Source: a virus. From it: DNA of 48,983 nt. The notes below the pieces were generated by a model. That model was not told the origin of the DNA, made no database searches, and saw only the letters and a list, made by a program, of their open reading frames with translations. The translations under genes and the position numbers were made by a program. Positions 19,724 through 40,000 of this stretch are shown one piece after another. The stretch is taken from positions 3,543-52,525 of the IMG/VR virus record IMGVR_UViG_3300037963_003291; one strand, written 5' to 3'. The number at the start of each line of letters is the position of its first letter. The first letter of the stretch is position 1.

Positions 19724-20014
19724 ATGAGACATTTTATATTTATAAAGTCAAGCACGGAAGTTATATCTGTGCCAGTTCATACGCTAAAGCTAATAACGTA
19801 TACTAGCACTACTACTATAACACTTTCTTTTGAGGGTACTGTAAATCAAGATCTTCACGTTGTGCTTACTGTGGCTTCAGGTAAGACTGCTAATGTTATA
19901 GAGGCTATAACAAATCAAGTGATAAGTGAAAGGATGTCTGTGCTTAAGTACGATGCGGTTAATAGTAAGTTTCCTACTAGCAACGTAACTGGCATCACTA
20001 CAATTTCGATATAA
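19724..20014 (+). CDS. Small beta-rich capsid-region protein, 96 aa
   Basis: Alternating hydrophobic and Thr residues (FIFIKSSTEVISVPVHTLKL, then YTSTTTITLSFEG, then ITNQVISERMSVLKY) suggest a compact beta domain. I recall similar short proteins encoded beside major capsid genes in marine phages. It has its own promoter box and is followed by another, so it may be made as a separate short transcript. Function is unknown; a minor capsid or connector role is inferred from position. Confidence 0.5.
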   Translation: MRHFIFIKSSTEVISVPVHTLKLITYTSTTTITLSFEGTVNQDLHVVLTVASGKTANVIEAITNQVISERMSVLKYDAVNSKFPTSNVTGITTISI

Positions 20015-20023
20015 TATATTGAT

Positions 20024-20031
20024 TATATTTG
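20024..20031 (+). promoter_or_regulatory. TATATTTG promoter box before the gene at 20061
   Basis: Exact TAnnTTTG match 29 bases before the ATG, followed by GCG and an A/T-only leader (TTTAATTTAATATTTAATAA). It lies 10 bases after the previous stop with no terminator between. Confidence 0.6.
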
Positions 20032-20060
20032 CGTTAAGTTTAATTTAATATTTAATAATA

Positions 20061-20921
20061 ATGGAAAAGAAAAGAAGAACTACAGGGCGAGTTAAACCTC
20101 AGCCTAAAGTAGAAACAGCAGTAGAGCAGGTAGAAACAGCACCGCCTCCTGCAGAAGAACCAAAAACAACTAAGAAGGCACCTAAGATTAAGCAGCGCGT
20201 TAAGCAAAGCTCTGGATGTGTTTATGAAGCCTTAACTAATAAAGGCCCAGCGTTTATGCTTATGAGCAGAAAGATCTCTGTATATGATAAAGAGTCTGAT
20301 ACGCTAAGAACTGCTAGATACTGCCCTAACGAAAACTCTATATGGCAAGACGAACAAAGCGATGTAAGTAGAACCGCACCTATTATTTTTAGGGATGGAT
20401 TTTTAACAGTATCAAAAGAGCAGCCTAATCTTAAAAGATTTTTAGATATACACCCATCTAACCAAAGTAACGGTGGTACCGCCTTTAAAATTATAGACAC
20501 GAAGGTAGATAAAGAAAAAGTTGTAGAGAAAGAGTTTGCAATATTTGATGCTATATCATTAGTAAAAAATTCTGACGTAAACGATCTTCTCGCTGTAGCT
20601 TTGTTCTTCCGTATAAACATAGACAGACCTATGGCTGAAATTAAGCATGATCTTTTAATGATTGCTAAGAAAAAACCTCAGTCGTTTGTTCAGTCGTTTG
20701 ACGATCCTATCGTTAAGTGTAAGGCTACTATAAGACAAGCTTTAGATTATCAAATCGTTAAATCGTCAAGAGACGCTATGAGATGGTTTGATTCAAATGG
20801 AATAATTGTTTCTGTACCTCACGGTCAAGATGCAGTTGACGTAATGTCAAGATTTTGTCTAACAGAGAAGGGAGCTTCTGTGTTAGCTACCCTAGAAGAT
20901 CAGTTAGAAAGGTTGGCCTAG
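20061..20921 (+). CDS. Conserved phage structural-region protein, 286 aa
   Basis: Residues 1-50 are a disordered Lys/Pro/Glu linker (PKVETAVEQVETAPPPAEEP). Then comes CVYEALTNKGPAFMLMSRK, a segment ARYCPNENSIWQDEQ, and PIIFRDGFLTVSKEQPNLKR followed by FLDIHP. That central pattern recurs in many marine phages near the capsid genes. The C-terminal half is helical with VDVMSRFCLTEKGASVLATL. No enzyme motif is seen. I cannot assign a function; a head-completion or genome-associated role is a guess. It has its own promoter and terminator, and it is the only gene noted here that ends in TAG. Confidence 0.5.
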   Translation: MEKKRRTTGRVKPQPKVETAVEQVETAPPPAEEPKTTKKAPKIKQRVKQSSGCVYEALTNKGPAFMLMSRKISVYDKESDTLRTARYCPNENSIWQDEQSDVSRTAPIIFRDGFLTVSKEQPNLKRFLDIHPSNQSNGGTAFKIIDTKVDKEKVVEKEFAIFDAISLVKNSDVNDLLAVALFFRINIDRPMAEIKHDLLMIAKKKPQSFVQSFDDPIVKCKATIRQALDYQIVKSSRDAMRWFDSNGIIVSVPHGQDAVDVMSRFCLTEKGASVLATLEDQLERLA

Positions 20922-20947
20922 ATGTCATAAACGCTCATGAAGAAGGA

Positions 20948-20971
20948 GGCCAGCCTAGTGCTGGCCTTTTT
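20948..20971 (+). terminator. Rho-independent terminator
   Basis: GGCCAGC (20948-20954), loop CTAGT, GCTGGCC (20960-20966) and a following TTTTT give a perfect 7-bp GC-rich stem with a U-tract. It ends the transcript of the 20061 gene. Confidence 0.85.
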
Positions 20972-20973
20972 CG

Positions 20974-20981
20974 TATATTTG
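20974..20981 (+). promoter_or_regulatory. TATATTTG promoter box for the tail operon
   Basis: Exact TAnnTTTG match 3 bases after the terminator tail and 17 bases before the ATG at 20999. It starts the tail-protein unit and is the second terminator-promoter pair in this arrangement. The terminator U-tract again lies at the -33 region. Confidence 0.65.
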
Positions 20982-20998
20982 TTATAAATATCGTAAAA

Positions 20999-21703
20999 AT
21001 GATAAGTGTACAATCAGTTTATGAAACAGTAAAGAATTTAGTCAACAAAGACCAGAAAGGCTTTGTGTCTCCTGAGGTGTTTAACTCTTTTGCTAAGGTA
21101 GCTCAGCTCAACATCTTTAACGAGATGTTTGAAGATATCTACAATGGAAACAAGCTTCGCAGGATGAATGTTGATGGAGGCGGTCATTTGTCTGCTGTTA
21201 CTAAGTCTAGATCAGATTTATCTCCGTTTAGAAGAACTGTTACTTTAGAGAAGAATGTAGATATAGAGGCGTTTGAAAAACCTCTTGACTTTTCTACTGT
21301 TGTAAACTGCACTCTAGCTGGAAGAAGAGGTAGGGCTAAAACAAACGTACAGATAGTGCATGAGGAGGAAAAAATAAACCACATCCTATCAAGCAACCTT
21401 TCTGCACCAAGCAGATCTTTTCCTGTAGCTTTGATATCTGAAGATATAGAGGTGTTTCCTACGTCTATTACAAGAATAGATTTTACATATCTAAGATCAC
21501 CATTAACCCCTTCATATCAAGCAACATTTGCAGAGTTCAATGGGGTCTCTGTAGAGGTATTTAATCCAGATGCGAGTCAGGACTTTGAACTTCCTGTACA
21601 CTGTGAACAAGAATTAGTTGCTGAAATAGCTACGATGATGGGTATCAATATCAGAGATAAAGACGTGTATACTCACGGGTCAAACGAAGAAATTAAAGCA
21701 TAA
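20999..21703 (+). CDS. Tail ring/connector protein candidate, 234 aa
   Basis: The N-terminus (SVQSVYETVKNLVNKDQKG, then FVSPEVFNSFAKVAQLNIF) is a pattern I recall for structural ring or connector proteins of crAss-like phages, which begin with a helical domain carrying GyvSpeeFN. Later segments are beta-rich (DIEVFPTSITRIDFTYLRSP) and it ends in a helical VHCEQELVAEIATMMG. I chose the ATG at 20999 because the promoter and terminator lie just upstream; a frame open from 20855 would run across the terminator hairpin. The stop overlaps the next ATG (ATAATGTC). Probable role: ring between portal and tail. Confidence 0.62.
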   Translation: MISVQSVYETVKNLVNKDQKGFVSPEVFNSFAKVAQLNIFNEMFEDIYNGNKLRRMNVDGGGHLSAVTKSRSDLSPFRRTVTLEKNVDIEAFEKPLDFSTVVNCTLAGRRGRAKTNVQIVHEEEKINHILSSNLSAPSRSFPVALISEDIEVFPTSITRIDFTYLRSPLTPSYQATFAEFNGVSVEVFNPDASQDFELPVHCEQELVAEIATMMGINIRDKDVYTHGSNEEIKA

Positions 21704-22545
21704 TGTCTAGAAATACAGTACCATTAAGCCAGATAGTAGGCGATTACATGCTAACGCAAGAGGAGAATGATTTTTCATCAAACTCATCTCATGCTGCTAT
21801 ACACAATATAGCTTTACGTGGAATACGAGAGATAGGTTTTGATATTGGAAAAAAGATAAAGTCTCTAAAATTATCTATAGACTCGTCTAATAATACAGTG
21901 GAGTTGCCTGACGACTTTGTTGATTTGACTAAAATTGGCTCTGTGGGTGAAGACGGATTGGTTCACGTATTTACGGAGAACAAGCATATAAACCAGTCAA
22001 GAGCTTACGCTGATGCATCTGGTAATGCTGTCTCTAACTCATCTACAGCTTACGATAGTGATGGAGATGGTGTGTTTGATAGAGTAGACTCAAAGGGTTC
22101 TACTGTTGGCGACGAAGGCGGTTCCTCTTTAAACGACGTGTTTGAGTCTTATATATTTAGAAACTTTATTCATGGGGTTACGCAAGGTAGGCTGTATGGT
22201 ATAGGCGGAGGACAAAAGGCGGGTATGTATAGATTGAACTTAGATCAAAACAGGATTGAAATAGACACCGATTCTGACATAGCAGAGGTAGTTATCGAGT
22301 ACGTAGCTGATGAAGCTAGATCTTCTGACCCTAGCGTACATGTTTACGCAGAGGAGGCTCTTAGGGCTTATATATACTACAAGCTTATAGAGCGTAAATC
22401 TCAAGTGCCTATGGCGGAGAAAGCTAGAGCTAGATCTGAGTTTTACAACGAAAGAAGAAAAGCCAATGCTAGACTAAGCAACTTCACTAAGCAAGAAGCT
22501 CTTCAGGTAATACAAAAGAACTTTAAGCAGTCACCTAAGGTATGA
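21703..22545 (+). CDS. Head-to-tail adaptor / tail stabilisation protein (P22 gp4-like), 280 aa
   Basis: The segment STVELPDDFVDLTKIGSV (N-terminal Ser here stands for the preceding NN) near residue 65 is characteristic of P22 gp4-like adaptors, and the helical end (YAEEALRAYIYYKLIERKSQ, then ARARSEFYNERRKANARL) is also typical. An insertion around residues 95-145 has YDSDGDGVFDRVDSKG, a calcium-loop-like DxDGDGxxD motif unusual in adaptors. The protein should close the portal and bind tail proteins. It is coupled upstream (TAATG) and downstream (ATGA at 22542). Confidence 0.72.
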   Translation: MSRNTVPLSQIVGDYMLTQEENDFSSNSSHAAIHNIALRGIREIGFDIGKKIKSLKLSIDSSNNTVELPDDFVDLTKIGSVGEDGLVHVFTENKHINQSRAYADASGNAVSNSSTAYDSDGDGVFDRVDSKGSTVGDEGGSSLNDVFESYIFRNFIHGVTQGRLYGIGGGQKAGMYRLNLDQNRIEIDTDSDIAEVVIEYVADEARSSDPSVHVYAEEALRAYIYYKLIERKSQVPMAEKARARSEFYNERRKANARLSNFTKQEALQVIQKNFKQSPKV

Positions 22546-25202
22546 TAGACAAACTAGCCCCACTTAAGCTGCAGACTTCTAGTGACGAAAGATCCATAGG
22601 GCCTACAGAAATGATAGATGCCCTTAATATCACTGTGACAGGTGATGAGGATGGTGATGCAAGCGTAATAAAAAATATAAAAGGAACCATAGCTGTTCCT
22701 GGAGCAACACCAGAGCTTGCACTTCCTCTTGGAGAGAATATGGTTATAGGAAGCACAGAAGACGAGACATTAGGTGTTATATATTTATTTGTTTGGAACT
22801 CTGGGGGAAACCATGGAGTTTGGGCATACAGCTCTAACTCTAGAAACTACAGATTAATATTTCAAGATCCAGATGGCACATATCTAAACTTTGAGAGAAA
22901 TGGATTTGTTAAAGGTGATTTAGTAAGGGTAAGGAGAATAGAGGACGACCAACCTATCGTAATATGGGGTTGCACAAATCCTATTGCTCAAAACTACAAC
23001 CCTCTAGCCACATTAGATGATGGTTCATGTTTTATTCCAACCTTTGATCCTGACGAAGAGGACGTAGGCTTTATAACCTATAAGCTCTCTTCCATTTACT
23101 TTGATTTTTCTATAACGGCTATTATGCAGTCGTTTGGAGGTGCTGGAATATTCGAAAACGTAAGATTTGATGAACATGGTTCCGACTATATAAAATCAGC
23201 AAAAATCATTATAAATGTTCTGGAGGGTACACTATACTCATCTGAAGAGTTTAATGAACAAAGCGCTATCAATTCAGATTCAGACCCTATAGAAATTCCT
23301 TTAGATATAATGCTATGTCCGAACTACCCTTCTTTTGAAGAAGATGGATGTGACTATAATGGATGGGTTTGGGGTAACGAAGATCAACAAAACTTCTTTT
23401 ATCCCGACAATATAAACCCTTCTGACATAATTGTTTCTTATAAAGTACAGATGGACCTTATAAATGGTCCTATCATTACTGAGACCATATCTCGAACAAG
23501 GCAGCTAGTGCCTACTCCTGGTGGAGGCGGTAACCTATACCCTCTTCTTTTTGAAGATTCAAATCTTATATACTCGCCAGGTTCAGGCGGTGCTGATGAT
23601 GGTCACCACCGTTTCCCAGAGTGTTGGAATAAAGATCAGCTTACTTCTAGACACGCTGTTAAGGATAGAGAGGGTCCTGTTCAGGGGGAGGATTTATTAA
23701 GGCCGTTTGCTAACGCAACTGGATCTGTAGATGGATTGAGAACTATAGTTGACTTTAGCGCTCCAATGGCTGCTTGGCAGAGTCAAACTGAGCAGTGGGA
23801 GGAGGACGGCTATGGTGTAGATCCTGAAACTGGAGGTGGAATTTACCCACCTGTGTTTAGCCCTACGTGTTTTTCTTCTACAGCAGCATATATCACTAAT
23901 AACGATTTAGCAACATGGCTGGGTCCTACAGCGTCTATAGAGGGTACTCATTCCCTCAATAATGATGAGGGTATGCTTTCAGGTGATTTTACATTTAGAC
24001 CTACCGCAGCGTATAGTGGACCAGGAACGCTAAGAAACAGAATAAGGGTGCAATATGCAACATACCATAGTGAGATGGATGGCTCCCCTTACCCACCATT
24101 TATGTATCCAAATGTATACGGATTTTTTGGGCACATACCTATTGAATTCCAGCCATTCGGAGACCCTAACATATATAGCAGCAGTGATATGGGGGCTATT
24201 GCTGATGAAGGTTGTGATGTCACTATAGAAAGACAAGTCTTTGGTGCTCCTCAATATAATGGACCTATATCAGAAGATTTATACGACAGCAGATGGGTTT
24301 ATTTGACTGTATCAGGGCCAGGGGGAGCATTTAGTAACTTGCAGCCGTGGTGGGCTACTTCTGCCTTTCAGACAGAGGTTAATAATGGAATTCTTGTAAG
24401 AGAGTTTGAAATTGACTACAGAAATATGATATTCCCAGAATATGCTTTTCCTAATCTTGTTGCTCACTTCTGTTATGAATCTTGTCTACCGTGTATAACT
24501 ACAGACAACCCAGAAGATGATCCAGACATCCCAGACTTTGACATAGAAGGCGATGATTACAATTTAATATTTAACATTTGCGACTATCTCAACCCTGAAA
24601 CAAATGCTATTGATATAGAATATAGCGCTGTTCAATTTAATGCGGACGTATTAGAAAATGATTGGGGTATTGATGAAGTTCAAGCATTTAGTCAATATGT
24701 TGGAATGAGTGCCGAAGAGATAGGTTGCCCTAATGTAGTGACAGATGATGAAGATATTAATGTACCGTTCCCGTATACTGGAAACTTATGTGACTACCCT
24801 AGACTCTTAGATTCGTCTGGTCAGCAGATAACTTTAGAAAGCGCTTCATCTGCATATATTGAAGTTTTGGATGCTATTGCAGAAGGCGGCACTACTAGCC
24901 TTTCCGCTACTTACGATTACCCAGACCTGGACGGAGACGGCTTTATTACTATTCAAGATTTGAATCTTATTTTAGGTATGGCCAATATATTCCCAATAGA
25001 CTGCTCTGGTGGTGGAGCTCCTCCAGAAGGCCCAACACAAGACGATGATGATGTAGTACCAACAGTAAGATCTCAGTCTACTACATCTAGAACTACTAGG
25101 TCTAAAACAGGCTCAAAAGCTTCAGCTAAGAAAGCTGCTAAAAAGACACCTACTTACACATCACCTTCTAAATCAGTTTCTTCTGGTAAATCTAAATACT
25201 AA
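22542..25202 (+). CDS. Muzzle-type tail protein, N-terminal part, fused to host-like repeat and dockerin-like modules, 886 aa
   Basis: Residues 1-125 (EMIDALNITVTGDEDGDAS, IKNIKGTIAVPG, LPLGENMVIGST, VIYLFVWNSGGNHGVWAY, YLNFE) match the start of the large tail or muzzle protein of crAss-like and other Bacteroidetes phages. The normal continuation appears only in the next gene. Instead residues 143-165 form a GCTNPIAQNYNPLATLDDGS repeat like those of the secreted protein at 9099, then a Gly/Trp/Pro/Tyr-rich region of about 600 residues, a dockerin-like DLDGDGFITIQDLNLIL near 795-812 and a Ser/Thr/Lys basic tail. It may be an exposed tail adhesin. It begins at an ATGA overlap and ends 5 bases before the next gene. 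Confidence 0.62.
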   Translation: MIDKLAPLKLQTSSDERSIGPTEMIDALNITVTGDEDGDASVIKNIKGTIAVPGATPELALPLGENMVIGSTEDETLGVIYLFVWNSGGNHGVWAYSSNSRNYRLIFQDPDGTYLNFERNGFVKGDLVRVRRIEDDQPIVIWGCTNPIAQNYNPLATLDDGSCFIPTFDPDEEDVGFITYKLSSIYFDFSITAIMQSFGGAGIFENVRFDEHGSDYIKSAKIIINVLEGTLYSSEEFNEQSAINSDSDPIEIPLDIMLCPNYPSFEEDGCDYNGWVWGNEDQQNFFYPDNINPSDIIVSYKVQMDLINGPIITETISRTRQLVPTPGGGGNLYPLLFEDSNLIYSPGSGGADDGHHRFPECWNKDQLTSRHAVKDREGPVQGEDLLRPFANATGSVDGLRTIVDFSAPMAAWQSQTEQWEEDGYGVDPETGGGIYPPVFSPTCFSSTAAYITNNDLATWLGPTASIEGTHSLNNDEGMLSGDFTFRPTAAYSGPGTLRNRIRVQYATYHSEMDGSPYPPFMYPNVYGFFGHIPIEFQPFGDPNIYSSSDMGAIADEGCDVTIERQVFGAPQYNGPISEDLYDSRWVYLTVSGPGGAFSNLQPWWATSAFQTEVNNGILVREFEIDYRNMIFPEYAFPNLVAHFCYESCLPCITTDNPEDDPDIPDFDIEGDDYNLIFNICDYLNPETNAIDIEYSAVQFNADVLENDWGIDEVQAFSQYVGMSAEEIGCPNVVTDDEDINVPFPYTGNLCDYPRLLDSSGQQITLESASSAYIEVLDAIAEGGTTSLSATYDYPDLDGDGFITIQDLNLILGMANIFPIDCSGGGAPPEGPTQDDDDVVPTVRSQSTTSRTTRSKTGSKASAKKAAKKTPTYTSPSKSVSSGKSKY

Positions 25203-25207
25203 CAGCA

Positions 25208-28200
25208 ATGCCTTTTAACGAACAAGAAAGAATTGATTATGTATACCCTTTTACAGGTAATGACCCTGATATGGATCTTATGTTGTTTTTTACAGACAAC
25301 AGAAATGAGCCTAAAGCTATAAATATACGTAGATGTATACATGAGGATGAAGAATTTACTGGTAATGCTCCAGGATATATTGATCAAGAGCTAGAAGACT
25401 TTACTCAAGCATGCCCTAGGGTTCCTATGGTTCCTATTGAATTTGATTACGAAAATGATCTTAACGATAACGGAGTTGCCATAGACAGTAATTTTAAAGA
25501 AACTGACGGAATGGTGTTTGCGTATCAGAATGTATATAGAAACGGATATGTCAGCGCACCGTCTCTTTATTCTAAGGTTGCATACCCTCCTACCATAGCT
25601 ACTATTGGTGCTGACCCTATTGTATCTGCACTTATAGAAAATAGAATTTCTTTATATATACCTAGACAAAACGCAGAAGTTTATAGAATAAGAATACTTT
25701 TCAAAGAAGGTGACGCTGGAATTTTTAAGTTGATTGATGAGGTTAGCACATCTGTAGACCAACAAAACGATGATTTTACACTGCTGTACAGTTCTGAAGA
25801 CGCAACAGAAGAGCAAGAAGAGCTTGGTTTAGTTAACGATGAGTACGCTGGAGTATACAGATTTAAAAATGATAGAATATACCCAGTTATACCTAAAGAC
25901 GAAGCTGATAAACACTTTGACAAAGTTCCTCAAGTAGCTCAAGCTCAAGGACTTTCTGGTCACAGGATAATGTATGGAAACTACATCGAAGGTTTTGATA
26001 ACATACAAGCTCAAGCTTCAAGCTCTGTTGTATATAAGCCAAGACCTGAAGACTTTGTTTCTTTTAATTTAGATGTAAAACCAACTTTTGTAGACAACGG
26101 TACTGGAAATGCAGCTAGCTCTGCTTTTATTATAGATACTGCAGGTATGTCAGAAGAAATTACTCCAAACTTTTATGAAGTAACAATTAATATAAGGCCA
26201 CAAAGAAATATACACGTATACAGAGTTGGAAGCACAAATTATAGAGGTTCTCAGCAGAGTAGCGATGATGATGGTAATTTAAATTTTGAAGCTAACTTAA
26301 CTGATATAGTTGATGATTTTGGGGCTGTTTTATATGGGCCACAAAGTATAGTAGATGCACCTGATGATGATGCTGGCACAGTTAACACCGTGAGAATGTT
26401 TAGTGGTAATGAAGGTGTGGCAACATTTGGTTGGAAGCAGCCAAATAGCTCGGCTGATACAACACATACTGGAACCACACCAGCCTCACCTCTAATACTT
26501 AAAGTCAATAATATACCTATTACTTTTTCTTTTTCTACAGTAGACTCTGGTGTTACTTTAACTCCATCAGACCTATCAAACGTAATAGATATAATACTTA
26601 CTGGAAGTAGCAATGGAGTACAGACAAACCCAAGTTATAATGCACTTCAATACCTTGACAGTCTTGGAGTTGAACTTTTAGACGCTCCTGGATTTGGTCC
26701 TCAATTTAGTAGATCATCTGTTTCTGTGGGTATTAATTTAGGTTTAGCGAATGGGTCTAAGTTTTTACAAAATAGCTTTCTTTCTGAGCTCATATGTACT
26801 ATGGGTCAGGGTGGATTAGCAAACTCTGTAGATAGTTTAAAACCTGCTGGTTTTTTTATAATAAACAAAGCAACATCTAAGTTTGGTTTTGAAAAGCACA
26901 CTCCTTTAAACGGCACTACCAGAAGAGCTTATAGGCTTAGACTTGATAATCTTATTATACCAGAAACTTTAGATGCAGCTGGCAACCAAACGGGGGTTCA
27001 AGACCCAGAGGCAATTCTCACATGCTTCCCTCTACCTCAGTTTGGTCATGGAACAATAGGGTATTACCCTGATCCAACTTATCAAGCTAATACAAGCATA
27101 GGTGGAACAGGAGATGCTTCAGATCAAACTCAAGGTAACCCTTTATTTTTTGGTCCACCGAATACTATAGCTCCAATTAAACCAAATAGATGGAAGCTTG
27201 ATGCCGAAAGTATAATTAGTCAAACTGGAGCTGGCTCAGGTCCAAAGGAGGTTAGATGGCCTACTATATCTAATGCCATGATTGGATCTAACGGAGGTGA
27301 ATCAGCTCCATTTACAACTGGCATACCTTTAAACCAGAATGGGTCGATTCCAGGAACTGACACAAATGGACAGAGTACAAATAGTCAAAGCGGTTTAGTT
27401 GGGGTTGATCCTGAATCATTTTACGCAGAACCTCAACAAAACGATTACTGCCCAGCACCTATTGGTGAATGGCTTGCGTTAAGCTCAGAAGGTGTGATAA
27501 ACCAACAATTTTGGCCTGAGTATACATACGAAGGAGAAAACCTGTACGGTACGAGTCTAATTAGTGCAGCTGGCTTTTTCAATTGGGGAGATTCTGATAC
27601 TTCTACATGGACAGCTCAAAATAGCCCTGATGGAACTTTAAAAAATGTTATGAAAGGTTTTGGATTTAATTCCGCATGCTGGGAGGGATATGTACAAAAC
27701 TTTCAGTACAATGCTTCATACTTAGATCCAGAAAGTATAGATTACGATCCTATATTTCTCTCTCCGTACGCACTTGTTGATGGTGATGCTGGACCTGGAG
27801 GTAAAAGGGATATAGCTAGACCTTATTCTGATACAGCTATAGCCGCTGATGGAGAGGTAGAAAATTTAACCAGACCTAGCTGGAATGTAGGTGATCAAAA
27901 AAATGGAGACACGGCTGTTAATATAGCTTATGGGGCTGACGGTCCAGATTCATCAAACTTGGATTATGTAATAGAATTTGACGTTGAGTTTCAAGAATTT
28001 GACGCACCTACAGGCGTAGCACCTAAACATAATAGATATGGGTCTATATGGTCTACTACGTTTTTAGGTATTGTAGACAATATGCCTTATATCAATCAAA
28101 TAGGAGAGTATACCTCTGTAACACAGCAAGAGGACGCTGCGTCAACTAACCCGTTTAAAAAGAACGCTTTTGAAAGCTCACCTTTAGAGTTTATTAACGT

Positions 28201-30853
28201 AGTGGCTAATTTTGGTCAACTTGGTGATACATCTTTATCGTTTAAAACAAGGGCGACTCATGATTTTGGTATAGCATATTACGATAAAAGAGGTAGACGT
28301 AGCGCTATAAATAAGCTTGCAAGCGTATACGTTCCAGGTTATTCAGTATCGGAGAGACCTGAGGGTACACCTAGGGGTCCAGTAGCAGTCAAACTTAGGA
28401 TAAATTCCGCAGCTCCTAGTACAAGAGATGCTAACGGAGATCTACTTATTGATAGTTATCGAATATTTTATTCAAACAGAAACGAGTCAAAAAGATTTAT
28501 ACAGTATTCTTCTGGAGGCGCTTACACCGAAAAAGGTTCTTCACCTGTAAAAGGTAAAATATATGTTTCTCTAAATTACCTCCAAGCTAATAACATATCG
28601 TACACAGAAAGTTATGGGGCTAGAGACGCAGATACTGATGAACCTATAATGTACAGATACTCTCCTGGAGATAAACTTAGGGTTATTAGTTATTATAATG
28701 CAGATGGAACTAGAATATTTGCAGAGGATAATGTTGTGTTTACTGTCTTAGGGGTAGAAAAACTCACACCACAACTTGAAGACCATCCATTATACGATAA
28801 TCAACAATTTTCTTTATTAAATCAAGAAATACAACAAAGAAACGGTGATTTTGTAGTTCTTCAGAACAATGAAGATGCATTAGGATTTAACAGTTCTGAT
28901 ATAGACAACGGTAGCACCTTCTGGGATGACAGATGTATATTTGAAATTGTATCTCCAGAAAAAGAAAGCGTTGACGAAATACAGGCTTATTTTGAAACAA
29001 GTTATGGAGGCAGAGTATTAGATACTCCTGATGGCATAGCAATTCATGAGCAACCGCCTGTACCAGAAATATATGCAGAAACTAGCGCCGATTCAGATTT
29101 TGTAGATACAGGTTTTGTAATTGAAGAAGGAGATGTATTTTTTAGAGCCGTTCCTGTAAACTTTAGGGAGTATGACAATGTGTTGGGTTCTTATGCAGAT
29201 TTAATAGTGGTAAATGAAGAGGGTGGAGATGTCTCAGAACCAAACTTTGTACCTTATTACCTTGAAACTGAATCACTTACAGATCTTCACAGAACAAAAG
29301 CTAAAGGGTATGGTAAGGTTAATTATATAGACCCAGATGTTTATAGAAAAAGAAAACAGTCTTCTGTTACGTTTTCACAAAAAACAAACCCTTCTTTCTT
29401 TAAGTTAAAACATAGTTCGTTCCCTCATTACGACGATCAGATGTATTTTGACTTACCAGAAAAACATGGGGAGGTTAACTATATAGTAGGAGAAGATGAA
29501 TACATCACATCTATTCAGCAAAATAAAGCTGCTGTTATTCCAGTTGACAGATCTATTACTGAAACCGTACAAGGAGATACAGCTCTTAACATATCGGAAA
29601 AAGTTTTAAACTCTGCTAAATTTTACATTGGAGAGGGTGGGTGCTCTGGTAATCCAGAATCGGTTGTGCCTATTGATGGTTATGTTTATTTTGTAGACAA
29701 AGCAAATAAAAGAATATCTAGGCTTAATCCAAGCAGTCAAACTGTAGAAAACATATCTGAGCTTGGTATGGAGCAATACTTTAACAGACAGTTAGAGGAG
29801 CTTATGGAGTCGTCTATGGATAGACTTAATTATAGTGATATAAGAATTGTGGGTGGCTTTGACCCTATGGAGAATGAATACATTGTATCGTTCTTAAAAC
29901 CAAATATGATTAATACACCATCTTTTGAAGGTATTGTACAGCCAAATGATCAGCACCCATTTTTATTGCCTTTAGCTCAGCTAGAGTTAAATTTCAGCGG
30001 TGGTCGATCTCATGAATCTTTTGTAAATACAGCTGCTTTTGATCACCAGGGGGGAGAATCTTGGAAAACTAGGTATAGTTATAACTCAACAAATTATGGT
30101 AAAGCCAACAACAGATTTATTTCGTTTAAGCCTCTAAGTCCAGTCAACACAAACGATACTTTTGTTTGGGATCACGGGAGAAACGAAACAAGAAACTTCT
30201 TTCACGGCGTTCAATATCAATCAATGATTAAAGCGGTTTCTACTGCTCAAAAGTCTTTAGGACCATCAGCAACTAAAGTTTACAACGCAATAGGTTTAGA
30301 GGGGACCGCTTCTTGGCCAGCCGTTATAAGAACACAAAATGAAATATGCAAAGTAGGCGATTACAGAGATTATGAAGGTACTAGATTTTCAAACATAAAA
30401 GGGTCTAGATCTGATGCTTCTACGTCAAACACTCTTGCGATAGGTAGAGTATCTAACGCATCTTTTGATGGTGACGCTGGGTTACTTACATTAACTTTTG
30501 AAACTCAAGTTAATAGATACCCTTTAAATCTTGGTGGGTCTGTGGAGACGTTTAGAATGGTTAACAATAGCGTTGTGCCTGTGTTTACTACTGTTTCTCA
30601 AATACAACCCATATCTATAGTAGACGACTTTACCATACTTTATAGCGTCGGATCGCAGGAATTAGTAAATCCACAAGAGGTACAGCAATTAGTAGGTAGA
30701 ATTATTATACATAGATCTAGCGGTAACGGATACGGTGATAGGCCTAGAGATAAGTATGCTATTGTAAGCCTTTACAATAACTCACCTCAAGAAGTAGAAC
30801 TATATTCTATAAATATGGAAGTTTCTAATTCAAATTTAGATTCTAGCGCATAA
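25208..30853 (+). CDS. Large muzzle-like tail protein (C-terminal continuation), 1881 aa
   Basis: The start MDLMLFFTDNRNEPKAINIR, then YPPTIATIGADP, corresponds to the middle of crAss-like muzzle proteins (TDNxNEPKKINI). Later, DFGIAYYDKRGRRSAIN near residue 1020, DSYRIFYSNRNES, and YVYFVDKANKRISRLNP followed by GGFDPMENEYIVSF near residues 1490-1560 are typical elements of the same family. The muzzle closes the tail tip and holds DNA in the virion. The protein is mainly beta with no signal peptide. Its unusual start, without the normal N-terminal domain, fits the idea that the gene at 22542 supplies it. Confidence 0.7.
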   Translation: MPFNEQERIDYVYPFTGNDPDMDLMLFFTDNRNEPKAINIRRCIHEDEEFTGNAPGYIDQELEDFTQACPRVPMVPIEFDYENDLNDNGVAIDSNFKETDGMVFAYQNVYRNGYVSAPSLYSKVAYPPTIATIGADPIVSALIENRISLYIPRQNAEVYRIRILFKEGDAGIFKLIDEVSTSVDQQNDDFTLLYSSEDATEEQEELGLVNDEYAGVYRFKNDRIYPVIPKDEADKHFDKVPQVAQAQGLSGHRIMYGNYIEGFDNIQAQASSSVVYKPRPEDFVSFNLDVKPTFVDNGTGNAASSAFIIDTAGMSEEITPNFYEVTINIRPQRNIHVYRVGSTNYRGSQQSSDDDGNLNFEANLTDIVDDFGAVLYGPQSIVDAPDDDAGTVNTVRMFSGNEGVATFGWKQPNSSADTTHTGTTPASPLILKVNNIPITFSFSTVDSGVTLTPSDLSNVIDIILTGSSNGVQTNPSYNALQYLDSLGVELLDAPGFGPQFSRSSVSVGINLGLANGSKFLQNSFLSELICTMGQGGLANSVDSLKPAGFFIINKATSKFGFEKHTPLNGTTRRAYRLRLDNLIIPETLDAAGNQTGVQDPEAILTCFPLPQFGHGTIGYYPDPTYQANTSIGGTGDASDQTQGNPLFFGPPNTIAPIKPNRWKLDAESIISQTGAGSGPKEVRWPTISNAMIGSNGGESAPFTTGIPLNQNGSIPGTDTNGQSTNSQSGLVGVDPESFYAEPQQNDYCPAPIGEWLALSSEGVINQQFWPEYTYEGENLYGTSLISAAGFFNWGDSDTSTWTAQNSPDGTLKNVMKGFGFNSACWEGYVQNFQYNASYLDPESIDYDPIFLSPYALVDGDAGPGGKRDIARPYSDTAIAADGEVENLTRPSWNVGDQKNGDTAVNIAYGADGPDSSNLDYVIEFDVEFQEFDAPTGVAPKHNRYGSIWSTTFLGIVDNMPYINQIGEYTSVTQQEDAASTNPFKKNAFESSPLEFINVVANFGQLGDTSLSFKTRATHDFGIAYYDKRGRRSAINKLASVYVPGYSVSERPEGTPRGPVAVKLRINSAAPSTRDANGDLLIDSYRIFYSNRNESKRFIQYSSGGAYTEKGSSPVKGKIYVSLNYLQANNISYTESYGARDADTDEPIMYRYSPGDKLRVISYYNADGTRIFAEDNVVFTVLGVEKLTPQLEDHPLYDNQQFSLLNQEIQQRNGDFVVLQNNEDALGFNSSDIDNGSTFWDDRCIFEIVSPEKESVDEIQAYFETSYGGRVLDTPDGIAIHEQPPVPEIYAETSADSDFVDTGFVIEEGDVFFRAVPVNFREYDNVLGSYADLIVVNEEGGDVSEPNFVPYYLETESLTDLHRTKAKGYGKVNYIDPDVYRKRKQSSVTFSQKTNPSFFKLKHSSFPHYDDQMYFDLPEKHGEVNYIVGEDEYITSIQQNKAAVIPVDRSITETVQGDTALNISEKVLNSAKFYIGEGGCSGNPESVVPIDGYVYFVDKANKRISRLNPSSQTVENISELGMEQYFNRQLEELMESSMDRLNYSDIRIVGGFDPMENEYIVSFLKPNMINTPSFEGIVQPNDQHPFLLPLAQLELNFSGGRSHESFVNTAAFDHQGGESWKTRYSYNSTNYGKANNRFISFKPLSPVNTNDTFVWDHGRNETRNFFHGVQYQSMIKAVSTAQKSLGPSATKVYNAIGLEGTASWPAVIRTQNEICKVGDYRDYEGTRFSNIKGSRSDASTSNTLAIGRVSNASFDGDAGLLTLTFETQVNRYPLNLGGSVETFRMVNNSVVPVFTTVSQIQPISIVDDFTILYSVGSQELVNPQEVQQLVGRIIIHRSSGNGYGDRPRDKYAIVSLYNNSPQEVELYSINMEVSNSNLDSSA

Positions 30854-30858
30854 TTTCG

Positions 30859-30866
30859 TAACTTAG
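30859..30866 (+). promoter_or_regulatory. Weak promoter-like box TAACTTAG
   Basis: TAACTTAG differs from TAnnTTTG at one position, lies 14 bases before the ATG at 30881 in the 27-base gap, and is followed by CAAAAATAATATAC, like the leader after the portal promoter (GCAAAAATG). It could be a weak start for the internal virion genes. Confidence 0.35.
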
Positions 30867-30880
30867 CAAAAATAATATAC

Positions 30881-32155
30881 ATGTTAGATTTTTTATTATT
30901 AATACAAAACGTCAGTTCAGACGTAAACGTAGCATATATACCGCTTCTTATAGCTGGTATTACTGCAGCTTCAAGTATAGCTGGAGGGGTTAGCGCAGCA
31001 AACGCTGCAGAGGAACAAGCTATAAGGGCTGGAACAAGAGCAGAGAGGGATAGAAATGAAGCTGCGCGTAGACTTGCAGCACTAAGAAGAGGAGAGCTAG
31101 ATACACCTATACAAAAGCAACTTATGAGTCAAGCTACCATGCAAGCTCTAGGTACTGGATTGTCTCGCGCTGCAGAGGATCAAGCTGCAGAGGCTAGAGA
31201 ACAAGCTCTTGCTACAGCGGCTATGGGTGGTACACCTATGAGCGCTTTGTCTGGCGACGCTTACGGAGACTTCGCTAGAGAACAAGCCATAAAGGGGCTG
31301 ACAGGTAGACAAAAGTCCCTTGCGGATTTTGGAAGCACTCAAGAGGCTATACAGTCTGCAAATGTACAAGACTTTAATACTCAACTCAAGGCAGAGATGG
31401 CGGACGCTAGAAGGTTAGAAAGAATGGGTATAGTAGGTCAGGATATGGCTGAAGACGCGAGATTAGAAGCGGAAAGACAAAAAAACCAAGCTATAGTCCA
31501 AGGGTTAGCTTCAGGTGTGTCAGCTGGGTTGGGTGTTGGATTTGAAGCTGGGTATGATACTATGTTTAGCCGAGGTACCGTTGGTGAAGACGACTTTATA
31601 CAAGGTATGTTTGGGGGAGATCCAAACGCTAGACTTCCTCGTTTTCAAGAAGGTGGTATGTTTGAAGATGCAAGTGATTCAGCAGCGGCAGCTTATAATT
31701 TAGGTAGCTACTACGGAGATCAGATAGCAGCGGCACAAGAGCAAGGTAAGAGTCAGTTTGATGCTATGCTAGAAATGGTAAAGAGCAGATACAATCCTGA
31801 CTCAAGCATTGACGATTACTCACTAGAAGAATTGCAAAATAGAATTGATCAGTTAAAAGAAGAAGATCAACAAGAGGGGGTTAGAGAAACAGAAAAGGGA
31901 GGTAAGTATAAATTCCGTGATGGAGGCGGTGTAATGGTTACTGATGGTGAGTTTGATCACGATACAAATAAAAAAGCTATTGTAGATGAAGAAACTGGCG
32001 TTAAAGAAGGTGAGATGACAGGACAAGAAGCTCTTGTGTTTAACGACAAGCAAGTGGCTATGATAGAAAAATTAACAAATGCTGGTGACCAAAAAGGACT
32101 CATGAAGTTTATGAGAGAGTTGCTTAGCAGACCAGAATTTCAAGGAGAAGCATAA
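30881..32155 (+). CDS. Internal virion (cargo/ejection) protein candidate, 424 aa
   Basis: The N-terminus has a hydrophobic Ala/Ile/Gly segment (IPLLIAGITAASSIAGGVSA), followed by a long Ala/Arg/Glu helix to about residue 210, then two motif copies RFQEGG (about 254-259) and KFRDGG (about 344-349). The C-terminus carries GEFDHDTNKKAIVDEET, then GEMTGQEALVFNDKQ and MKFMRELL, a module I recall from phage virion proteins following the tail gene. The amphipathic N-terminus could insert into the host membrane during DNA entry. Its TAA overlaps the next ATG (TAATGCC). Confidence 0.58.
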   Translation: MLDFLLLIQNVSSDVNVAYIPLLIAGITAASSIAGGVSAANAAEEQAIRAGTRAERDRNEAARRLAALRRGELDTPIQKQLMSQATMQALGTGLSRAAEDQAAEAREQALATAAMGGTPMSALSGDAYGDFAREQAIKGLTGRQKSLADFGSTQEAIQSANVQDFNTQLKAEMADARRLERMGIVGQDMAEDARLEAERQKNQAIVQGLASGVSAGLGVGFEAGYDTMFSRGTVGEDDFIQGMFGGDPNARLPRFQEGGMFEDASDSAAAAYNLGSYYGDQIAAAQEQGKSQFDAMLEMVKSRYNPDSSIDDYSLEELQNRIDQLKEEDQQEGVRETEKGGKYKFRDGGGVMVTDGEFDHDTNKKAIVDEETGVKEGEMTGQEALVFNDKQVAMIEKLTNAGDQKGLMKFMRELLSRPEFQGEA

Positions 32156-34005
32156 TGCCAAATCATACTAATACACAATCTCCTATGTATTCTTTAAAGG
32201 ATTACGGAATACCTACATTTGGAGAGGCTTCCGCAAGGGAGCAGCGTGAAGCGCTTGAAGTAAATCAAGACGCTGTAAATACAGTAGCTAGAAACCTAGT
32301 TGTAAATAGAAGAATCGCCGACCAAGAGGCTGCTAAGCAAGTATATGGAGAGGTTCTTGGTAGTATGTATAAAGGCGATAGAGAAGCTATTGAGTTTATG
32401 CGTAATGATATTATGACTAAGTATAATAGTAGGCAATATGCTAGAAACCCTGCAGCTTTTGCTCAAGCTGTAGCCAATCTTAACGCTCTTATAGAAAACT
32501 CAGAAGCTTTCTACGCAGATTCTTACGGAGATACAGAACACTTAACATCACAGCCACAAGGCTTAGGTACAGGGACGACATTTGTGGATGCTAAGTATAA
32601 CTCTTTGACAAATAATGAAGCTCTTACTAAAATAGGTAAAGAGCCTGCTGTAAATATAGATGGAACTCCAGTAGATTTGTTTGCCGAAGCAAACGGTACG
32701 TTTGAAAAGATAAACAATGGTACAGGATACTATGATGCAGATAGTATGTTTATGAGAGATGGAGAGTTGTATGTTACAGTAAATAATGAAGAGGTTAGAT
32801 ATCAAGATTTAGAATATAGAACATTGGGTGGGTTAAGCTACCTACCAAACTTAAGGGATATAGGTGGTCAGCTAGAAGCACTTGCAAAAGATGCTAATAC
32901 TTGGGCTTACATATCTCACAGAAACGGTAAGTGGAATGAGAAAGACGCTTTAGATTTGTTTGTTGACGGGATGACGAATATGGAGGCTAGTGACAAACAG
33001 TTTAGAGCTGCGGCTTGGAACTCTGTAGCTGAGGGTATGGGGATAAAACCAGAGCTGAGGCAGACTTTTATAGATACAGGTAGTTTTGGAGAGGGTAGAG
33101 AAGAGCTATTTAACTCTTTCTCAGACAAGGTAAAAGAGGTTTGGTTGGATGCAACGAAGAGAGAGGAACCTGTAGTTGTGAAAACTCCAAAACCCAAAAC
33201 CGCTGCTGAAATAAAATTAGAAAATCGCCGACTAGATTTAATAGGTATACGTTATCAAGAGGAAGCACCTGCTGAAGAGGTAGGCGTAAAAGATAGATTA
33301 AGAAACGTCCTTATGGGAATAGGTGAGGAAGACGGATTCCAAGGTAGTCAATATGCTAATCAGATTATGGAGGCGCTTTCCCGCTTCGGTATAAATCCTA
33401 GTGCGGAAGAGTTAGCTGAAGGTTTTCAACCCAAGGTTCAGGTAACATATATTGACGAAAGCGGTGGTGTAAACTCACTGTTAATACATTACCCTAACGG
33501 GGAACTTCCTGACGAAAAGATTGCAGTTGACGATACACAAAATACTAATGATCCAGGAAACATACCTGGAGCTGTTCTAGGTATAATAAACAACCTACGA
33601 GATAGTGGAGCTTTAGTTCCAGAACGAACAGAAACCCCAAATAATCCAACTACAGGTAGGGAGTATGCTATGCCAGGACTATATGAAGACGAAAGAAAAA
33701 TTATAGTGGCATCTAAAGACGACGAAAATATAGACATTGAAATAAAACCTAACAAAGTTGTGTTCTTCCTAGATCAAGATGGAGGGCGTGGCGATATAAT
33801 GATTAAGAACGCCTTTTATGATGACGGAACATCTGCTGGCACCTTCTTAATAAAGAAAGGAAGTAGAAACTACGACACTGCGATCAAACTTCTAAATAGA
33901 GCTATAAAATCAAGCTACGGAGAGGACATGGAGATTGACATGTTCTTTGGACTACAGCCCCTTCCTGACGATGTAGGAGGCGGTGCTAATACCCCAGCTC
34001 CTTAA
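32155..34005 (+). CDS. Internal virion protein candidate, 616 aa
   Basis: I do not recognise a domain. The N-terminal half is helical and charged (REALEVNQDAVNTVARNLVV, AAKQVYGEVLGSMYKGDREA); the middle and C-terminal parts are mixed, with a Pro/Lys linker near 340 (VVVKTPKPKTAAEIKLEN) and beta segments (KVQVTYIDESGGVNSLLIHY; NKVVFFLDQDGG). No Cys-based site, signal or membrane helix is seen. It lies between the two other cargo candidates in one coupled unit, so packaging inside the virion is likely. A small GTDTPAP-like Pro tail ends the protein (GGGANTPAP). Confidence 0.5.
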   Translation: MPNHTNTQSPMYSLKDYGIPTFGEASAREQREALEVNQDAVNTVARNLVVNRRIADQEAAKQVYGEVLGSMYKGDREAIEFMRNDIMTKYNSRQYARNPAAFAQAVANLNALIENSEAFYADSYGDTEHLTSQPQGLGTGTTFVDAKYNSLTNNEALTKIGKEPAVNIDGTPVDLFAEANGTFEKINNGTGYYDADSMFMRDGELYVTVNNEEVRYQDLEYRTLGGLSYLPNLRDIGGQLEALAKDANTWAYISHRNGKWNEKDALDLFVDGMTNMEASDKQFRAAAWNSVAEGMGIKPELRQTFIDTGSFGEGREELFNSFSDKVKEVWLDATKREEPVVVKTPKPKTAAEIKLENRRLDLIGIRYQEEAPAEEVGVKDRLRNVLMGIGEEDGFQGSQYANQIMEALSRFGINPSAEELAEGFQPKVQVTYIDESGGVNSLLIHYPNGELPDEKIAVDDTQNTNDPGNIPGAVLGIINNLRDSGALVPERTETPNNPTTGREYAMPGLYEDERKIIVASKDDENIDIEIKPNKVVFFLDQDGGRGDIMIKNAFYDDGTSAGTFLIKKGSRNYDTAIKLLNRAIKSSYGEDMEIDMFFGLQPLPDDVGGGANTPAP

Positions 34006-34016
34006 TATTATTTATA

Positions 34017-37000
34017 ATGAATCAATACTTAGATGAACTATACGGTTGGATAGCAAGTCAAGATCCAACTTTTAAATCTAGATATCCTAATCAGGACGAC
34101 TGGAATGAAAAGATGCAAGATCCAGAGTATGCTAAAAAAATGCACTCATGGATAAGCTCTATAGATAATACTTTTGCAATTAGGAGACCTGTAGATATGT
34201 TTTTAGAGTCTGTAAAAAAAAAAGATTCAACAGATTTGGATGGAGCTGGGGAGGTGGTTTCTACGGACCCTACTACATCACAAGATCAAGAACCTATTTC
34301 TTCGGAGTCGCAGTTGTCTCCGTTAATGACAAGATTTAACGCATCGTTAGATGAATTTAAAGGCACCACTCAAGGGATGGTGTACATGACTGAGCAAGAG
34401 AGGAAGGATGAGGGGAAAGTAGGAATAAACTGGTTTAAAGAAGCTACTCCTTTTGCAGATAAAAAAGAAGAGGAGGCTGTAATAGAGCTGAACGCTAGGT
34501 TTGGTCAATATGGATTTAAGTTTGAAGAGGCTGTTCCTGGAATGGATTTTATATATGCCACCGCTCCTAATGGAGAAACCATGTATTTTGGAGTTGATGA
34601 AGGGTATGGCACTAACCCTTATGGGCAGGACCGCCTATTTTATAGAGCTAGAACAGAATCTATAAGGAAAGGAATTGATGAGCAACTATTTTCTTTCATA
34701 GGGGAGAATATGGTTGATGATGAGTTTAAGGTTGAAACTATAGCTATGGCTAATGGTGTAGATCGCCATAGAGTTACCATACCTAACGAAAGAGAAGCTC
34801 AACAGAGGATAGATATGTCTAACGAAATGATGCTAACTATAGCAGAAAGACAGTTAGCTCTTGATGCTAAATATGAAGAGTATGAAGAACTAAACAGTCT
34901 TACATTTCTTGAGCCTAGCGAGGAGGCTAGAAGAAACGAACTAGCAGAAGAATTAAGAGTTGAGATACCTAAACACAACCAACACATACAAGATTTTAAT
35001 GGATCTTTAGAAACGCTTGAATATGATTTAGGTGCATTTACACAGTTAAAAGCACAGCAAGGTTCAAGGCTTGGGTATTTTTATAACAAGCTTCTAAAAG
35101 GTATTGATAACATAGCCATGGGTATAGGCGAGATTGGCGTTGATGTATATACAGATTTTGCTTATCATCAATTTGTAAACGCTCAGCAGTATGTAGATGA
35201 ATTAAGAAAGCAACCAGGGTTTGAAGATTTTAAAATACCTGAAAGCTTTTTTATTACAAAAATTGCTGGTCGTGAAGTAAACCCATCCAACATGCCTAAC
35301 GAAGCTGTAGATGGAAGAGTAGTTAACTACCCTGATCTTAGGGCTTATATAAGAAAACAAACATTTAAAAAGAAAGAAGATGCAGGATCTTTTGAATATC
35401 AGTTTGAAGATCTAGACTCTCAAATAATGTCAACCCTCTTAGATCCAGTGAGAAAGAGATTAAAAAAACCGTACATAGGGGCAACACCTCTAACTAATAT
35501 GTTTGGTTCTGACGGTCAAACTCAGGAGTATATTAACGCAATGGACGAAACATGGTTTACTGGATCTTTTGGTGGGGCTGTAGAATCAATACCATCGTTT
35601 GTAGGTAAGAGATTAAGAATGGTTAGGCTTATGCTTTCAACAACAGCTCAGCTTCAAGAGGAGATGTCTGGTGAAGAGTTTGCTGAGGTCAAAGAGGGGG
35701 ATAAGTATAAACTTATAGCGCCAGTGGCTGTAGCGACAGCCGTGTTAGAGAATCTAGGTTTTAGAAACCTTATAAACAAGAAAGGCTTTGTTAGCATGCT
35801 TGTCTATAAATTTTTGAAGAAGTCTCCTGGAGGTAAGTTTACAGCTAAAAGTTTTGCCGAGTTTGTAGAACAAGATGTTAAAACAATGGTGGGGAGAGGC
35901 ACGCTAACTATGGCTGGAGGTTTTGCTGCTGAGGCTGAAACAGGGTTTTTGCAAGAGATTGTTGATATTAACGCAAAAAGGATGTGGAATGCTACATATG
36001 GAGTTCAATTTGATACTCCTGCCGCGTTCTCCGCAGAATACTATTCTCAGGTTACTGAAGCTGCGGTAAGGGAGGGTATAGGATCTTTATTGCTTGGAGC
36101 TCCAACAGTCGTAAGATCTGCCACTAATCCATTTAGCGACAGAGACATGGAGCTTCTCAACATGTACAAAAACACAGCTGTAGTGGACGCCTCTATAGCG
36201 TCAATAAACGGAAAAGTTGCAGCGGGAGAAATAACCCGTGAAGAAGCAGATGAGAAAATACAACAAATAAACGATGCAGCCGCGGCAGTAAATCAAATGC
36301 CAGAAAATCTATCTCTTTCTCAACAGAAGCAAGCGTACCGCCTCCTACAAGAGGAAAAGCAGCTAAAGGATAAAATGAAGGGTAAGGACGAAAGGTTTTT
36401 TAGAAAAGAAGCAGCTAGAATTAAAGAAATATCTAAGGAGTTAGAAGCTCTTGCTGAAGCAGCCCCAGAGGTCACACAGCAGCCCGAAGCAGCCACAGCA
36501 ACTCCTTCTCGTAGTCAGCAGGATATAAGCAATAGATTAGCGGAAATAACTCAAGAGATAGAGGAGATAGATGCTTTAGAAGTCTTAAGCAAAGAAGATA
36601 TCAAAAGAAAGAAAAATCTAGAAATAGAGCAAGAGCAATTAAGGTTTGAGCGAACTCAAGCTCAGCCAGCTCCAGCAGAAACTACACAGACTGCTGAAAC
36701 TCAACGAGATGAGACTGTAGTTGACGATGTTATTGACAGACCTGCTCAATTAAGCGGTTTCGGGGGTGGTCAGTTTGATAGCCCTATCGACGGAGATGTA
36801 TATGTAGAGGGCCAGAGAGTTGTTTTTGAATCGAAAGACGGGCAGATATATGATCTAGGTAATATAGACGATATAAGAAGTGACGGAGTTTCTTCTGTAA
36901 ACCTCATACCTCAAGAATCATTGGTTCAAGTCAATGAGGATGGATCATTAACCGTAGAGGGAGAGAAGATGAACATGCAAACAGAGCTCCCTACACAAGG

Positions 37001-40000
37001 AATAGAATATAACGAAGATGGTAGTATTAAAGCTGTAAGCCTAGTTGATGATAGTGGAAACACTAAGATGTATACTGGGGCTGTAGCTGAAGATTTAGCT
37101 TATCAAATTTTGCTTAATCAAATCCAAACACCAGAACAAGAACAAAGAATTAACGAACAATTAGAACAAGATGAAGAATTTAGACAACTCAGAGAAGCCC
37201 AAATCAGAAGAAGTACAACTGACAAATCTCAAGAGCCTGAAGGCGTTGCCGAAGAGGGACCAGATCAGGATACTGTCGAGACTCCTGCACAACCAAGGGA
37301 AACAGGACGACCAGAAGAAGCAGGACCAACCCAAGAAGTAGATCTAACTGCGTCAGATGCTGAGGCTCAAATAAATGCTTTAGATAATGTAGCCACACCA
37401 CTTAAGAGAGCTATAACAGGTATGCTTAAGAGGTGGAAGAAAGATATAAACAAGTATAAGATGAAGATTGTGCTGTTAAACAGCATGCAAGACTTCGCTA
37501 CTTTGAGGGACTCAAATGGAAATCTAGTTGTAAACGGAGCGAAAGAATTTTTAGATTCTGATGGAATCATAAGGGGGTACCATAAGGATGGAGTTATATA
37601 CCTTCCACCTTGGGAGACTACAAACATGGATGGCACTACAGAGTTTGGGTCTACAAAAGAAAGCGTTCAAGAAGAGTTTCTTCACGGTGTACTTAGGACG
37701 ATTATAGGTCAAGACTCAGCAAGGAGGGCACCGCTTTTTGCTCAACTGTCTAAGCTGGCTAAAAGTAGTGTTAACGCTCTTAATGTATTAAAAGAAAAAC
37801 TAGAGACGTACCTTCCAGAATCGCTTGTTATTAAAGCTGGTAAGGATAAGTTTCATTTAAACATAAACGGTCAGGAAGTAGATGTCACTAATCTAACTGA
37901 GCAGAAGCTTCGTGATCTTGGTCTGTCGGAAGACAAAGCTAAAGAAGTTAGTGAAGAATCTATTGTAGGGTTACTTATAGATTACTCTAATTCTCCAGAA
38001 AAATATGAGTCTGGTATTGTAGCTAAAATAAGAAACTTTATCAACAAACTGTTTGGTAAGTTTAAAGGTGACGTTGTTATAAAAAACAACGACGACTTAT
38101 TGGCTCTTGCTAAAAAGATAAAAGACTCTAGGCAGTTTGAAAAGGCGGTTAGTGTAGAACAATCAGATTTAAACTCCGCTATTAATGAAGATACTAAAGC
38201 TGAAGAGGCTGAGGGTAGAGGTGCATTTAGCGCAAAACAGCAGAAAGTGTTCAATGACATGAAGGATGGAGTAAAGCTTTATTATACTCAAGTTGCTTCA
38301 GTTGGTTACAATGAATTTACAGGTGAAGATAAAATGAGTTATAGGGATTTAACAATGGATGTCCCTAGCTATTTCTATTTCAAGGCAGCTTATAATAATT
38401 CTACAGGAAACGGTGTTGCTCCAGACAGGATGAGAGATATGTATTACTTTGATTCTGATGGAAACAGAGTAGACGTTGCCCCTCCAAGACCTAAGGTAGA
38501 CAATGCTGGGAATGTAATTGAAATGTCAGTCCCTAAAATTAAAACTTATGGGCAGAGATTGATCGAAAAAAGACTAAGAGAGCAAGAGTTGCGTGATGAA
38601 GTTAGAAAGCAAATAAGAGATCTTGATAGTGAGTTATTTGAACTTTTAAGCAACAATGATAAGAATCTCAGTAGTCACACTCAGGTAGATTCATTTAGCC
38701 CTATACAAAGAGATGAGTTTGATGTTCCATCGTTTGCATCAACAACCGTAGAGGATGAGATGGAAAAGCTTCAAGAGCTTATAATAACAAAAGCTAACAT
38801 TAAAGCCCTAATAGAATCCGACATAACGGAAGAAGATCTTATTGCCTTAAAAGGTAGGGGTAGTATTGTATTTAGATCACAACACCCTTCTATATTTACT
38901 ATGAGTAATTTAGAAATTATAGGGCCAAGTGAAATAGATACAACACCTCAAAACATTGCTGAGTTGGGTATGGAATCAAACCCTGATGCCGAGGGAGGTA
39001 GATTTGCAAAAAGCAGAGTTACAAGAGAGGGTATCAAGAGAAGAAAATTAGACGCCCTTAATGAAAAAGGTGAGCTTGAATATCCAGACCTGAAGATCCA
39101 GGTTAACAGCTACAAGAGTAAGCCAAAAGAGTTTACTAAAGAAACATGGAAAAACGTAAGCGACCGCTTCAAAAGAGGTAGGGTTCTGCACGTTGGTTGG
39201 GACCAGGTAGCTGCAGCAAATTTTAGATTTAAAGGAAACCCTAACACATATTCTACAAGCAGTGGTATCGAAGAGCTTTCTATTGCGGGAAAAGAGGGTA
39301 AGTCTGTGTCTTTCCATAATGCTGCTATGCAGAGACAGTTTGAGAAAAAGTTAGTTGAAAACGGCATGACTGACGGCAAAATTCACGTGGTTGTTACTCT
39401 TAATGGGGCCAAAGCAAGAAATCTTGCTGGTAACCCACTACTGTTTTCTGCAATAATGGATAATGTGTTGTACCAAGCGGATCAAGGTAATCTAGGAAAA
39501 AAAGATGTGGTCGATAAAGCAAATGAGGCTTTCAATGACAGAAGAACAGATAAAAGTAGAAGCACGTTTGAATCTATATTAAGATCTCCTGAGTCATCTC
39601 AGTTTGAAGAATTAATCGTAAGAAATGAAGACGGTAGTTTTGGCTGGAAAGATTACAGATCTTTTAAAAAGGGGTACGATTTATTCATGAATATTGAAGG
39701 TAAAACTTTGGGCATGTATCAAAGGGTAGGTGAGAAGTTTATAGCTATAGGCTGGGCTGGGCCACGTGGATTACCTACTCTACAAGATATAAGAAATTCT
39801 TTGATATTACCAGAGTACATGGATGGAACTGATGCGCCTGAAGCTGGCACGGTGGCGGCTGTGTTGGAGATAGATTTAGGTGAGATGAAATCAAAAGTTG
39901 GTGATGGATTTAAAAAGCGTATTGATAAGGGATCAGCATTTCCTTACGCGTTTGAAGGAGGGTTAAAAGAAGTTGTAGTCGTAACGGATAAACCTTTAGC

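Follow-up and report, generated by a model that had tools for sequence, protein, structure and literature searches.

The window (the whole 48,983-nt stretch of DNA that was analysed) carries two adjacent open reading frames on the same strand, ORF1 (886 aa, 22542-25202, +) and ORF2 (1881 aa, 25208-30853, +), which lie in different reading frames and are separated by a spacer of 5 nt. The start of ORF1 overlaps by 4 nt the 3′ end of the ring-protein gene directly upstream; the ring-protein gene was found directly upstream of the muzzle gene in all of the loci compared, and the same holds for crAss001. The features of the locus are as follows.

21703..22545 (+): ring (tail barrel) protein gene (PHROG 13977, E 1.5e-66)
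22542..25202 (+): ORF1, putative muzzle N-subunit plus C-terminal tail, 886 aa
22542..22943 (+): muzzle N-part (aa 1-134), reaching from the N-terminal segment through propeller blade 1 to the first strand of blade 2 (aligned by profile with fused muzzles)
22944..25202 (+): variable tail of ORF1 (aa 135-886)
22968..23030 (+): single GCTNP motif of ORF1 (aa 143-163)
24438..24758 (+): NICDYLNPET domain of ORF1 (aa 633-739; matches L128 aa 2033-2134 at 72.7 bits)
24750..25031 (+): LCDY unit of ORF1 (aa 737-830), containing the EF-hand-like loop YPDLDGDGFITIQDLNLIL (matches to L128 and L132 score 39.9 to 54.8 bits)
25077..25202 (+): basic, Tyr-terminated C-terminus of ORF1 (aa 846-886) and stop codon
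25200..25210 (+): ORF1/ORF2 junction, TAA-cagca-ATG
25208..30853 (+): ORF2, putative muzzle main subunit, 1881 aa
25208..25279 (+): ORF2 aa 1-24, a new N-terminus kept in the split clade (PF.G.D...D)
28235..29947 (+): second body block of ORF2 (aa 1010-1580; body model B2)
30008..30841 (+): C-terminal muzzle part of ORF2 (aa 1601-1878; model C; PHROG 18548, E 1.2e-7)

The GCTNP motif of ORF1 also occurs in other muzzle tails and in the product of a gene near the portal gene (window 9099-11303, +), a 734-aa protein with several GCTNP motifs and a T9SS type A sorting domain (TIGR04183; PF18962 at 35.4 bits against a cut-off of 27), which looks from its sequence as if it is destined for the type IX secretion system of the host. 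Similar GCTNP motifs are also found in ORFs upstream of the structural genes of L024, L006, L076, L081 and L084. Elsewhere, the window encodes two chaperone-like proteins, namely a weak Cpn10 (GroES) match (1420-2004, +; 23.9 bits, cut-off 21.1) and an HSP20 protein (43391-43816, +; 53.4 bits), as well as a 2948-aa protein with an LPD38 domain (34017-42863, +), a B12-type ribonucleotide reductase (44243-46135, -) and a DnaB-type helicase with a BT4734-like N-terminal domain (47379-48881, -).

Both proteins matched the virion protein family PHROG 14478 (1474 positions), profile positions 8-139 aligning with ORF1 aa 8-143 and positions 130-362 with ORF2 aa 19-297, and both matched fused, single-gene relatives by profile alignment. 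A profile of 30 such relatives matched crAss001 gp44 on both sides, with E values of 1.8e-27 (C side) and 6.8e-16 (N side). The Pfam model crAss_MUZ_C was found in 30 of the 30 relatives and crAss_MUZ in nine; ORF2 alone scored 15.3 bits against crAss_MUZ_C, under the 27-bit cut-off, so that its muzzle membership rests on the intermediate fused relatives. The AlphaFold model of aa 1-380 of the fused relative L025 (mean pLDDT 77, about 88-92 around the break) contained the N-terminal propeller blades and the IG1 fold, of which the model of ORF1 showed blade 1 only. The best PDB fold matches of this model were the crAss001 muzzle entries 7qol (E 2.5e-9) and 7qok (E 8.5e-9); unlike the fold search, searches of the PDB by sequence, queried with a single protein or with profiles of 4 and 30 rows, gave no muzzle match. 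In the elemo phages, Gundel_1 and ctfjg026, the N-part and the body lie inside one gene. Taken together, these comparisons support the view that ORF1 and ORF2 jointly represent a crAss-type muzzle divided over two genes, as the sequence-only reading had proposed. The motifs that it had named in the two proteins were all present, and the profile alignments confirmed that the two proteins cover complementary parts of one family.

The known counterpart, crAss001 gp44 (7QOK, 7QOL; PF25731, PF25729), is homologous to both sides of the break, has the same N-terminal fold as L025 and has the ring-protein gene directly upstream, as here. However, gp44 is a single 1371-aa protein, whereas here the muzzle comes as two proteins with the cut in the blade-2 hairpin, and the ORF1 tail has no counterpart in gp44. 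PMC10172136 presents the crAss muzzle as a single protein with a probable role in gating ejection and contacting the cell; the length variation that it reports lies in the crass and IG2 regions and not at the two sites seen here. According to the same work, the T7-type nozzle, like gp44, combines a ring-joining domain with a seven-bladed propeller.

The position of the break was defined by profile alignment to the single-gene muzzle. ORF1 aa 1-130 aligned with residues 2-129 (E 8e-44), and the alignment of ORF2 started at residue 131 (E 2e-54), bearing out the earlier claim that an N-terminal part is missing from ORF2. In the L025 model, residues 67-113 form the four strands of blade 1, and the next strands are 125-130 and 136-141. 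As the break falls between two high-confidence strands of this model, the cut maps to the first hairpin of blade 2, close to residues 123-136 of gp44; in gp44, IG1 lies between blades 2 and 3 and starts at residue 163 (PMC10172136, from which the blade numbering used here was inferred). The AlphaFold model of ORF1 itself showed one complete four-strand blade at aa 66-109 (pLDDT 93-96) and was uninterpretable beyond it, the tail having a pLDDT of about 30.

IMG/VR was searched with the capsid protein, the ring protein and the N-part, and a phage tree of 106 rows including the window was built from ring proteins only, with Crassvirales left out. The results showed that the N-part and the body share one frame in 94 of these rows and that the muzzle is split at the same point in six contigs with a complete junction, namely the window, L007, L010, L018, L024 and L063. 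Two further contigs that end inside ORF1 (L016 and L062) group with these six. A single branch sets the eight contigs apart from the other rows, with an SH-aLRT support of 99 when three long-branched rows were excluded and 90 when they were included. They represent a small group of uncultured phages akin to the crAss-like phages. The single frame in 94 loci, the exact break point and the eight-contig clade uphold the proposal that the muzzle gene has been divided. The N-part of ORF1 is kept across the split clade, and the ORF1 stop and ORF2 start overlap in L007, L010 and L018. No close relative of the whole of ORF2 was found in IMG/VR by exact-peptide search, and a search of the record from which the window was taken gave no second N-part.

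The N-part, body and C-part were scored with separate models, and the names NBC, NB|C and N|BC are used here for the corresponding gene divisions. The first locus set contained 54 NBC loci (single gene), 22 NB|C loci, in which the C-part is a separate downstream gene (L003, L013, L072, L103, L128, L132 and 16 others), and the window clade as N|BC. Among the matches listed for the second locus set, partly from the same contigs as the first, at least 17 were NBC and at least 30 were NB|C; these matches included no further split, nor were the known split contigs among them. Mapping of the three states onto the tree required three changes (minimum two), compared to a mean of 24 after shuffling. 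NBC muzzles, found in uncultured relatives, the elemo phages and Gundel_1, share the order of N-part, body and C-part seen here, but in one frame and with no tail on the blade-2 hairpin. NB|C muzzles (e.g. L103, L128 and L132; also ctfjg026) consist, as here, of two genes with a variable tail ending the upstream gene, which runs on for 23 to 832 residues past the body, and some of these tails are homologous to split-clade tails; they break, however, before the C-terminal part, which is thus a gene of its own and in the window belongs to ORF2, whereas the split clade breaks at residue 130. In the split genomes with a complete ORF2, 19-27 residues lie between the body and C-part models and there is no tail there. 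A longer linker between body and C-part as a scar of refusion was considered and dropped, the counts being too uneven. Since a variable tail ends the NB gene in many relatives, the family has two alternative break points, with a tail at either.

The tail of ORF1 was compared with 3700 ORFs from the loci. The result showed that ORF1 aa 600-886 match three of them, in each case at the end of an NB gene (L128, 1e-34; L132, 2e-31; L157, 2e-20), where the homologous tail forms the C-terminus of a muzzle gene not split at the blade-2 hairpin; the reversed ORF1 tail matched none. The elements common to the ORF1 tail and at least one of these three genes are the NICDYLNPET domain, LCDY units with the EF-hand-like loop (repeated in L157) and the basic Tyr-terminated end, and GCTNP motifs come before these elements in L128 and L157. 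No relative of ORF1 aa 170-600 was found among the loci, and none of the ORF1 module in the viral contigs or the bacterial contigs searched. Of the features that the sequence-only reading had listed for this region, the basic tail is real (it ends in GKSKY), and the GCTNP "repeat" proved to be a single copy. The dockerin-like loop stood in part: one EF-hand-like loop is present, where a dockerin has a duplicated calcium-loop motif, and no Pfam dockerin match was obtained at E 1.

Within the split clade the tails range from about 85 to about 840 residues and are often non-homologous. L024 is the nearest relative of the window (ring protein 75%, ORF2 48% identical), and residue identity between the two ORF1 proteins is 45-85% per block to about residue 120 and at background after about residue 140. 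The L024 tail, which has two loops (EF-hand models score below their cut-offs), is not homologous to that of the window and matches the NB-gene ends of L133 and L137. A third tail type is common to L007 and L010 and a fourth to L018 and L016, and L063 keeps the split with only about 85 extra residues. Basic Tyr-terminated ends also occur on ORF1 of L007, L010 and L018 and on the NB genes of L107, L128 and L157; the tails of L063 and L024 are without one. The ring proteins of about 45 loci end in KNFKQxPKY, resembling the basic Tyr-terminated muzzle tails, and the ring protein of the window ends in PKV. Because these tails are homologous to NB-gene tails, either the tail position has moved or tails have been swapped between the two break points. 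Judged from these alignments, the ORF1 tail appears to occupy a position that the family already had, moved or exchanged between break points.

Several other explanations for this arrangement were weighed. That the division is a sequencing or assembly error, a pseudogene, an intron or a programmed frameshift restoring one protein has next to no probability. Such a case does exist in L112, where a single in-frame TAA (11440-11442), elsewhere than the split point, breaks an otherwise continuous muzzle gene and looks like an error or lesion. However, the six contigs with a complete junction come from different metagenomes, and purifying selection acts on the N-part (dN/dS about 0.03 for L018/L016, with dS near saturation). 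As the same break is found in other IMG/VR contigs and all eight contigs form one clade, the split is no error. A programmed frameshift was rejected because ORF2 lies in another frame with an offset that is not conserved, that of L063 being unlike that of the window, and an intron was rejected because no Rfam match was obtained in 20000-34000. On the sequence-only reading, the muzzle gene had been divided by the insertion of a receptor- or glycan-binding module of foreign origin. The variability of the tail, the lack of relatives of ORF1 aa 170-600 among the loci and the occurrence of GCTNP and EF-hand-like motifs in the T9SS-type protein of the same genome speak for such an insertion, but the homology of the last third of the window tail, and of the L024 tail, to NB-gene tails of relatives speaks against it. 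The shared split, the differing tails and the short tail of L063 imply that the break is independent of any one insert. An inserted module is thus improbable and not the best account.

It is quite improbable that ORF1 is an accessory protein anchored by a muzzle-like N-terminus, with ORF2 alone forming the muzzle. The conserved new N-terminus of ORF2 is a point against a two-subunit muzzle, as it could supply a replacement strand and might replace part of the contribution of ORF1. However, ORF2 would then be without blade 1, the record holds no second N-part, the N-part stays conserved, and the upstream neighbour and gene order are those of fused muzzles. An alternative that keeps both subunits in one muzzle, and that we regard as unlikely though deserving of some weight, gives the tail an internal or docking role, as barrel lining or ring mimic, in place of host contact. 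The basic Tyr-terminated ends, present on four of the six split tails and on several NB tails, look like the ends of the ring proteins in about 45 relatives, which fits internal docking and is a point against display. Nevertheless, the wide size range and the replacement between near relatives would be unusual for an internal part, and two split tails lack the basic end. Variation in length together with replacement suggests a surface module that meets the host.

We consider it likely that the window encodes a two-subunit muzzle in which ORF1 bears an exchangeable, probably host-contacting tail. ORF1 would give the N-terminal segment, blade 1 and the first strand of blade 2, and ORF2 the remainder; the subunits, made from adjacent or overlapping genes, would join non-covalently to complete the propeller of the muzzle, which would act as the gate at the tail tip. 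The break would free the C-terminus of ORF1, so that the tail would hang from the blade-2 hairpin as an exchangeable module akin to the tails that end NB genes before a separate C-terminal part. Its variability suggests that it most likely projects outward and helps in contact with the host surface. A candidate role in receptor or glycan binding is hinted at only by this variability and by the GCTNP and EF-hand-like motifs.

No report of a divided muzzle was found in the open-access literature searched, a weak negative as most subscription papers lay outside that search. The locus would provide a muzzle naturally divided within a propeller blade, a two-part form that is offered for structural work, and would add variable tails at two fixed sites to the crass and IG2 regions, thereby naming two positions where the muzzle tolerates breaks and fusions. 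More tentatively, the gate may be built by two genes that share one blade, with a host-contact tail that could be mounted on either loop by moving the break; if true, display modules would change without touching the gate itself. The tails are thus candidate host-contact modules in phages without known receptors.
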